From NCBI GenBank assembly GCA_030295235.1, contig AP026166.1, positions 1 to 37,290 on the forward strand: a DNA stretch of 37,290 nt, in the 5' to 3' direction. The position numbers and the translations under genes are program-made. The notes below the pieces were generated by a model. It was not told the DNA's origin. It was given only the letters and a program-made list of their open reading frames with translations, and searched no databases. The DNA comes from Fistulifera solaris. Its lineage: Eukaryota > Bacillariophyta > Bacillariophyceae > Naviculales > Stauroneidaceae. Below are positions 14,501 to 20,467 of the stretch, piece by piece. Each line of letters opens with the position of its first letter. Position 1 is the stretch's first letter.

Positions 14501-17500
14501 ATGCCGAAAAGAAAGCTCGAAATTGAAAACAATCGTTTGAATCTATAGGAGAAGAAGAACGCTGGATTTGCACTCGCTGCACTTTACAAAATCCTTCGCG
14601 AAGACGTCGATGTGAAGCCTGTGAGTCTCATCGCCCGGTTGCCGAGCTATCAAGAAGCGACAACACATCAGCGGCATCTACTTTGAATAGTAATTCTTCA
14701 ACCTCTTCTTCTATTGTGGCGACATGGCTACGGAAACGTCGGCGACGAACTTATCAATGCGTGAATGATAATCAACCAAGTCGCGATGAGCCGCTGGCTT
14801 GCGACGCAAAGCAATGCAGCTCGAAGCAAGACCACGAGGAAGCTGCGAAAAGCAAGATTTCGTCTCACTTATCCCCAAAACTCATACTTGTATAGAAAAT
14901 CTTGGTATAGAGCTCGCAGTTCCTGAAGACATTGAACAGTCATTGACTGAAACAAGCCGCAACGTTCACGAGGCTGGTTTTAGTACGTACACAGCACCAA
15001 GCAACCGAACCGTCTCTTTATGAAGGAAAGCGGAAAAGACTCAAATTCGGACTTTGGTCTGTGCACAGAAAAGCTTCGAAGGAGGAACGTCACGTCACAG
15101 AGAACGGCGGTGTTGATTCTAAACACCTGGCAAGCGCTGCAGAATCACAATGCGTCAAAGAAGATGGCAAGAAAGGGTTATCATACGCAGTTAAACAATG
15201 TCTGAAAGCTTTAAACGTGGCTGATAGTGTTGTTCAACATGACGACACTTGTGAGAAGGAGAACATATGCGATAATGACAAAGGAAATCACAAACAAAAC
15301 CACCTTCTCCATTCTCACGGCAAGGCTACAACCGAGAAACCGACGAAAACACCGAAGTTCGTTGAAAAGTTGCCACAGAAAATAAAGTTGAATTCTTTTA
15401 TACACCTGCCAGTCAATCGCAGAGAGACGAATACGATGCGGGCAAACCTGTGGCGCGCACGTCTAGTCATCGCAATACCCGATCGAGTGAGGAGACGTTA
15501 CAATCGTACGATTCAATGCAGAATCACTCATCTTTCAAGGCAGCGGACTGCTTACTCCCCATCAACAAGAAGTATGTCACGAATCAATCCCTGCAGATAA
15601 CACCTCAGTTCTAATCCATGGAGTAAAAACGATCAAGACGAGGCGCTTTACCAGAAATCAACGCTCCATTGGTTACCTCAGTCGATGAAGTGGATGTGGT
15701 TTTGAAGGAATGAGCAAGGGTTGAATGTGACAACCATGTTGCCTAGTGGAAAGTCAAGCTTGCATTCTGCGTCGAGCACGTTAGACTTCCATTTGTCTTC
15801 CGAATCAGAAACTAACTTTGTCGCGCTCGCCACTGCCGGTTCCCTTACGGTATCGAAATTACGTAAACAGGTATTTGACACAGAACAGACAATCGATTCT
15901 TGTGGTTTAAGTTTTTCGTCGGTACCTCTCCCTGCTGGAAAGAGACTTCTCTTAAATGCGGTTTCGACTGTCGGAGTTGACGATGCAGTTGAACTACCCA
16001 AGCAGAGTCGGGAAGGGACACGTAGGTCATCCTGTACCGTTTGTTTATCATCATCCCCAACCGGACAGGAAAAGTCTGTTAGGAGTTGTACTGAATGTGG
16101 CAGTGCTGATAAAGAGTCCAGAGTGGGCATCGAACTGACAAAAGAGTTGCTTGGTCCTGATGTTAAACACCTCCTGGCTCCATGTTCGACTGTTGAAGTG
16201 TTCGCTGAAAGTCGGGTTGCTTTCTTCATTCGCCACTGCCGGATCAGGATCGATAGTGGAGGTTTCTGCGGAGGCACTGAAGAAGGGGAGCGCTCTGTTT
16301 ACCGGAGACTTAACTGTGCTGCCACACGTATCGTCCGATAATACTGTTGCTGCCAAAAGCGATGATTGTGTTTCATTTACCACTGCCGGATCGGGATCGC
16401 TAGTGAAGGTTTCTGAGGAAGCAATGAAGAAGGGGAACACTCTATTTAGTGGGAACTTGGTTTCTTTTTCAATTCCGTCATCGAATCAGCTGACTTTTTC
16501 CAAATCATCTGCTTTGCCTTCTTTCGCTACTGCCGGATCGGGATCTCTAGTGAAGGTTTCTGATGAGGCAATAAAGAAGGAAATGCTCTTTTAACGGCGA
16601 CTCGAGCGCACTATTAGAAACGCCTGTCGATGTTACTCTTTCTGTCAAAAGCGTCGCTTGTGCTCCATTCGCCACTGCCGGATCGGGATCGATAGTTGAG
16701 GTTTCTGATGAGCGAATAAAGAAGGAACCGCTCTTTTAGCGGAAATTTGGGTTCATCGTTAATTCCATCATCGAATCAGCTGGCCTCTTCCAAATCATCT
16801 GCTTTGCCTTCTTTCGCTACTGATGGGTCGGGTTCCTTAGTAAAGGTATCTGAGGAGGTCCTGAAAAGGTGCACGCATTTTTATCGGAAACTCGATCCCA
16901 TCGCCAAACTTGTCATCAAATCAACCGACTTTGTCCAAACCTTCTACTTACGTCTCAATCGCTTCTGCTGGGTCGGATTCAATAAATATGGTACCGGCGG
17001 AGTCATTGAAGAAGGGAAACGCCTTAGTTTGCGAAGGCTCAAATGCCGTACCGAATCTTTCATTTGGTGCTATTGATTCCGCCACTAATGACGCTCTTGC
17101 TTCATTCGCCACTGCAGGATCGGGCGCAATAGTGCAGGTATCGGATGAGGCGCTAGAGAGGGTGAATGCTCTTTCGTTGGAGACTCCTGCTCCTCGTTGA
17201 ATCCAGCACTGAATCAGCAGGTTACGTCTTATCGTGCGTTCGCTACTGCTGGATCGGGCTCTCTAGTCGACGAATCTGAGGAGGCATCAAAGAAAGGAAA
17301 TGCTTTATTTTGCGAAGAATTAAACGAATTATCACTTCTGTCAGCCAGCACGAGTGTTTCCGCCAAAACAATGCCAAAGTTTCGTTCTCTACTGGTGGAT
17401 CGGGTGCAGTAGTGCAGGCATCAGAAAATGCAATAAGAAAGGCGGGCGCTTTTGCGATGAAGATTCGAGATCACCTCCGATTCCGTCGTCGGATAACGCG

Positions 17501-20467: not shown

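Follow-up and report, generated by a model that had tools for sequence, protein, structure and literature searches.

Whether the regular tandem repeats of a gene near a telomere of the diatom Fistulifera solaris are the BRC units of a BRCA2 homologue, and how such an array grows and changes in length in a unicellular alga, are the questions raised by this locus. The window, meaning the whole stretch of DNA analyzed (37,290 nucleotides), is the entire contig AP026166.1 (C54), part of a genome of 51.7 Mb in 61 contigs; F. solaris is an allopolyploid diatom (PMC5935921). The contig begins with about 75 CCTAAC telomere copies (window positions 1-466), and the gene lies ∼14.5 kb from this telomeric end. 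The neighboring genes carry DUF6824 and a helicase-associated domain, both of which are common in diatoms, and an open reading frame downstream (20928-21536, reverse strand) contains about seven 30-base repeats coding for a Val/Pro/Thr-rich stretch, with no Pfam family at an E value of 0.001.

The gene very likely encodes a BRCA2 homologue, organized with an N-terminal zinc finger, about ten BRC units that would dock RAD51, and a helical/OB DNA-binding domain. The RanBP2-type zinc finger (14554-14637, forward strand, as are all gene features below) matches PF00641 with an E value of 2.4e-10 and 39.9 bits, above the cut-off of 27, and the finger of a related locus on contig C17 (residues 28-55) scores 37.1 bits; the first 727 residues of the C17 protein form a single open frame holding the finger and three of the BRC units. 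The closest PDB relatives of the finger are Nup153 (0.0047) and RBM10 (0.059), which do not settle the choice of ligand among RNA, ubiquitin, and Ran. Part of the BRCA2 helical domain (PF09169) lies at 18359-18469, at 15.6 bits and below cut-off in the window and above cut-off on contigs C18 (8.3e-11) and C17 (2.5e-11), followed by the OB1 domain (18594-18881; PF09103, E value 4.6e-24, and 3.6e-31 in C18), which is found at three places only in the genome, on C54, C18, and C17. A phmmer search with the C18 piece matches the BRCA2 structure chains 1mje, 1miu, and 1iyj, from mouse and rat, the best being 1mje at 1e-32 over 272 residues. These OB1 and structure matches bear out the placing of the BRC-like units within a BRCA2 gene by the earlier note. 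The 1mje and 1miu matches extend beyond OB1 in C18, and the C-terminal part (18882-20467) probably completes the DNA-binding domain and may include OB2 with its tower and OB3. Its beginning is matched in C18 and the remainder is unrecognized: the final 337 residues read in C18 have no match to any family or chain, a two-sequence profile of them finds only one unrelated chain at an E value of 1, and a structure model of 19619-20230 is unusable (pLDDT 34). A GT...AG stretch at 19220-19274, between two open frames, resembles an intron in the DNA-binding domain. A candidate second zinc finger (WSCNVC at 17891 and CESCHSL to 17972, from 17952) was rejected, its halves being in different frames. The gene region has no match among phage records. 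No relative could be confirmed in viral contigs, scanned with both the unit profile and the OB1 piece, or in prokaryote contigs, scanned with the latter.

A motif scan places the array of ten units at 16229-17620, of which TRF covers 16380-16857. The unit cores, with spacers assigned to two classes, A and B, are U1 (16229-16306, FATA, class A), U2 (16376-16453, FTTA, class B), U3 (16523-16600, FATA, class A), U4 (16668-16745, FATA, class B), U5 (16813-16890, a degenerate FATD, class B, breaking the alternation), U6 (16958-17035, a degenerate IASA, class A), U7 (17105-17182, FATA, a weak member of class B), U8 (17239-17316, FATA, class A), U9 (17385-17462, FSTG in C54 and FSTA in C17, class B), and the last unit, U10 (17531-17608, FATA); U3 and U4 both lose frame near their ends in C54. 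The ten starts and nine spacings given by the earlier note (147, 147, 145, 145, 145, 147, 134, 146, and 146) are exact for C54. Of the 11 occurrences of the unit pattern in the window, 10 fall inside the array, and 30 random windows matched in first-order composition contain none; the pattern was composed after the units were known, so this comparison speaks for regularity and not for identity. A candidate further unit upstream, around 15826, agrees at 15 of 16 bases, but its score of 28 is within chance, with 500 shuffles giving a mean of 19 and a maximum of 29.

The 3′ half of the gene matches two further places in the genome, on C18 and on C17, where the locus is ∼87% identical; CSTF2 lies ∼11 kb further on in both. 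The window is collinear with C18, whose end has repeats similar to the C54 telomere. Over 9.5 kb, BLAST reports no mismatches and 49 gap openings. A MAFFT alignment, with three mismatched columns, contains 47 indels, of which 45 are deletions in C54 and 33 are of a single base. Over the whole contig the BLAST identity is 98.8%, with 51 mismatches and 267 gap openings, and a second alignment shows 7 to 17 deletions per 2 kb throughout, with substitutions most frequent within the first 4 kb and around 34-36 kb; a 1.1-kb segment with the CSTF2 gene is identical in both. Judged from these alignments, C54 is a redundant copy of the C18 end and probably the less accurate of the two, and frameshifts in C54, together with its 145- and 134-base spacings, are therefore not to be taken as biology. 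Departures from the 147-base period in C54 are thus in part sequence error. The spacings are 147, 146, 146, 146, 145, 147, 135, 147, and 146 in C18 (10 units) and 147, 150, 146, 150, 147, 141, and 120 in C17 (8 units). The first 13 residues align without gaps across all 18 units, and seven of the ten C18 units and seven of the eight C17 units retain the FxxA motif.

Neighboring spacers mostly differ, with classes A and B alternating apart from one slip at U5. This pattern points to a duplicated block that is mainly two units, or ∼292 bases, instead of the single 147-base unit with similar spacers that had been proposed; the ten-unit array of the earlier note is real and its spacings correctly read, but the likeness of adjacent spacers is not borne out, and the C54 spacings are in part error. 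In C18 the unit cores are 51 to 86% identical and the spacers, including the flank of U10, 19 to 86%. The C18 spacers proper are 33 to 64% identical to one another, with only the second and fourth (s2 and s4) reaching 86%, a divergence that speaks against recent growth of the whole array, contrary to the fresh-looking expansion suggested earlier, and argues that most of the duplications are old. C18 s2, C18 s4, and C17 s2 are all 86% identical to each other and give no order of events. Among the 45 pairs of C18 units, the first 13 codons have a pS of 0.46 and a pN of 0.17, with 132, 61, and 250 changes at the three codon positions, a sign that the motif persisted as the spacers diverged. Growth by in-frame duplication, as the earlier note had it, is supported, and the array would have been built mostly in two-unit blocks.

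Unit number varies, with 10 units on C18 and its copy C54 and 8 on C17; the earlier note anticipated differences between strains, and the difference seen here is between two related loci of a single assembly. C17 lacks 291 bases, or two units, that are present in C18 and equivalent to 16609-16898 of the window (coordinates transferred by hand from C18). The first 75 bases of C17 unit 3 are most like C18 U3 (89%, compared with 84% for U2, 81% for U4, 80% for U1, and 67% for U5), and its last 50 bases are most like U5 (88%, compared with 72% for U2, 66% for U4, 58% for U1, and 56% for U3), which suggests that it is a hybrid of a U3 core and a U5 spacer, as recombination between units 3 and 5 would leave. 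The U3 spacer of C18 is at most 60% like any other spacer in either copy, whereas the seven matched C17 and C18 spacers are 86 to 93% alike (the flank after the last unit is 74%), and loss in C17 is therefore favored. Assemblies can collapse tandem arrays, and the smaller C17 count could be such a collapse with no real contraction; the loss of a multiple of three bases stands against this, as does the hybrid unit, although collapse within C17 could leave the same junction, and we consider this reading unlikely. The favored alternative is that the array shrinks by recombination between like units.

The reading frame is broken in all three contig copies, many times in C54, and C18 changes frame inside the array; together with the gene's position near the telomere, this could be taken to mean that the locus is a decaying BRCA2 pseudogene with real frameshifts. 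C18 and C17 both change frame inside the gene, where a hand count finds 23 indels between them, 8 of which are single bases. All 15 of the longer ones are multiples of three, however, and what separates C54 from C18 is mainly small deletions, spread over the contig and not confined to the gene. Moreover, the two DNA-binding pieces give dN/dS values of 0.30 and 0.36 between C18 and C17 (the N-terminal piece gives 0.50 and the linker 0.59), and, with OB1 found at these three loci only, no other, intact BRCA2 is seen, so that a pseudogene is very unlikely and we favor a functional gene. In the array cores dN (0.099) and dS (0.094) are about equal (dN/dS 1.05, on small counts of 12 synonymous and 35 nonsynonymous changes), and single units may therefore be weakly constrained; spacer ends give 1.86 on 4 synonymous and 22 nonsynonymous changes, and these array values leave out U4, U5, and spacers 3 and 4, which are absent from C17. 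For the first 13 codons of the eight C18-C17 unit pairs, pS is 0.077 and pN is 0.050. On small counts, the array has about half as much synonymous divergence between the two loci (0.09 and 0.07) as the remainder of the gene (0.18 to 0.22), and conversion between the copies is a possible cause.

Two families are listed for the window piece and two for the first C17 piece. In each case one of them is the Pfam BRC family (PF00634, cut-off 20.3 bits), at 11.1 bits in the former and 15.5 bits (E value 0.012 over the whole library) in the latter, both below cut-off. For single natural units, the BRCA2 repeat is the only family listed in two of four, and none is listed in the other two. The profile search proposed earlier as a refuting test thus returns PF00634 matches, but no natural piece or unit scanned reached 20.3 bits; a six-frame search of the whole genome gave no candidate, probably because the model is short (29 positions), and a profile of the units found no BRC chain in the PDB. 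The units read T-A-G-S-G-S, and their turn following FxTA, ahead of the V-x-V part, exceeds the Pfam model by one residue. In four of the five PF00634 matches listed, the matched part of the protein is longer by one residue than that of the model, and the fifth does not span the turn. Removing one turn residue raises the score in three of four units (from no hit to 17.4, from 12.1 to 19.5, and from 15.2 to 20.7 bits, the last above cut-off), the fourth having no hit with or without the removal, and removal of one residue further on left no hit in either of two units, one of which had none beforehand. The low scores, the extra residue, and the PDB result would also fit a different Ser/Gly-rich repeat that lies in BRCA2 by chance and does not bind RAD51, but the location within BRCA2, the listing of the BRCA2 repeat as sole family for two of four natural units, and the passing of the cut-off by one unit after a residue is removed make this very unlikely, and BRC units with a longer turn are the preferred reading.

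The partners RAD51 and DSS1 are both encoded in the genome with BRCA2, and BRCA2, RAD51, and DSS1 each have two related copies. RAD51 genes lie on C27 and C29 (best E value 9.9e-122), with an ATPase core whose alignments to RAD51 chains score up to 370 bits and an FKTA linker motif upstream of it, and DSS1 genes are on the same two contigs. RAD51-family genes and DSS1 occur in pairs on contigs C15/C16, C19/C20, and C27/C29, as expected of an allodiploid genome. By analogy with human and Leishmania structures (PMC9162458), the FxTA units would occupy the site that binds the motif of RAD51 itself, and FxTA and the following helix-like segment would hold RAD51 protomers, with the helical/OB domain and DSS1 placing RAD51 on single-stranded DNA for repair. 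We infer from this analogy that this BRCA2 binds and loads RAD51, and the likeliest role of several units would be as a redundant tether for many RAD51 molecules. U5 (FATD), U6 (IASA), and U9 (FSTG) are probably weaker binders, and a glycine cost Leishmania BRC1 only about threefold (PMC9162458). Recombination is impaired by fewer repeats in Trypanosoma brucei (PMC2408642), and in mice one repeat is enough for viability while several give resilience (PMC12803100).

T. brucei BRCA2 has, like the diatom gene, a head-to-tail regular array in a unicellular eukaryote, with a stricter 44-residue period and 15 predicted BRC repeats (PMC2408642), and ten or more units in a unicell are thus not unprecedented. 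However, 14 of its 15 predicted units are identical, in contrast to the diverged diatom units with two spacer classes, in which no such near-identity is found. Its repeat number varies from 5 to 12 between strains and alleles, attributed to expansion and contraction (PMC2408642), whereas the diatom difference is between two related loci that are ∼87% identical. A likeness is seen in Drosophila, where odd and even repeats form two clades in the melanogaster subgroup, counts change from 3 to 5 and are 7, 9, or 11 in D. pseudoobscura strains, and a model of unequal crossing over involving a hybrid repeat has been put forward (PMC2882388), and the array is therefore not set apart from those of animals as the earlier note had it. 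D. melanogaster BRCA2 lacks a canonical DNA-binding domain (PMC12412785), whereas the diatom gene has helical and OB1 domains. Leishmania infantum BRC1 is a protist BRC with FxxA and a T-A-S-G-K turn that closely resembles human BRC4, binding with high affinity without an LFDE-like motif (PMC9162458); in Pfam alignments the diatom turn, T-A-G-S-G-S, is one residue longer before V-x-V. Taken as a whole, the earlier interpretation stands for BRC-like units in BRCA2, in-frame duplication, and a varying count, but not for a single 147-base block, fresh growth, or the contrast with animals.

BRCA2 is listed in six of six diatom datasets (five genomes and one transcriptome) and BRCA1 in none; the text of that paper covered here contains nothing on the BRC number, spacing, or zinc finger of diatom BRCA2 (PMC4647503). 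A literature search on BRC repeats in diatoms and algae, on BRCA2 and RAD51 in Phaeodactylum, and on BRCA2 with a RanBP2 zinc finger, found no description of the array or the finger in a coverage that leaves out most subscription journals. As far as that search goes, what is new is a diatom array with its spacers in pairs, the longer turn of its units, and the zinc finger. T. brucei already provides a precedent for regular arrays of variable count, and Drosophila one for odd/even classes and unequal crossing over. A bolder proposal, which we hold to be quite improbable, is that a pair of units with two linkers is a heritable BRC module reached separately in flies and diatoms, that alternate linkers let neighbors hold a RAD51 dimer for nucleation, and that the diatom adds the longer turn and a zinc finger that, at sites of damage, brings the protein to RNA or ubiquitin. 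The presence of two spacer classes, a feature shared with flies, suggests that units may be gained or lost two at a time. Why BRCA2 proteins carry many BRC units or one is debated (PMC2408642 and PMC12803100), and a free-living alga whose genome carries one BRCA2 locus with 10 units and a related one with 8 would give a natural comparison.
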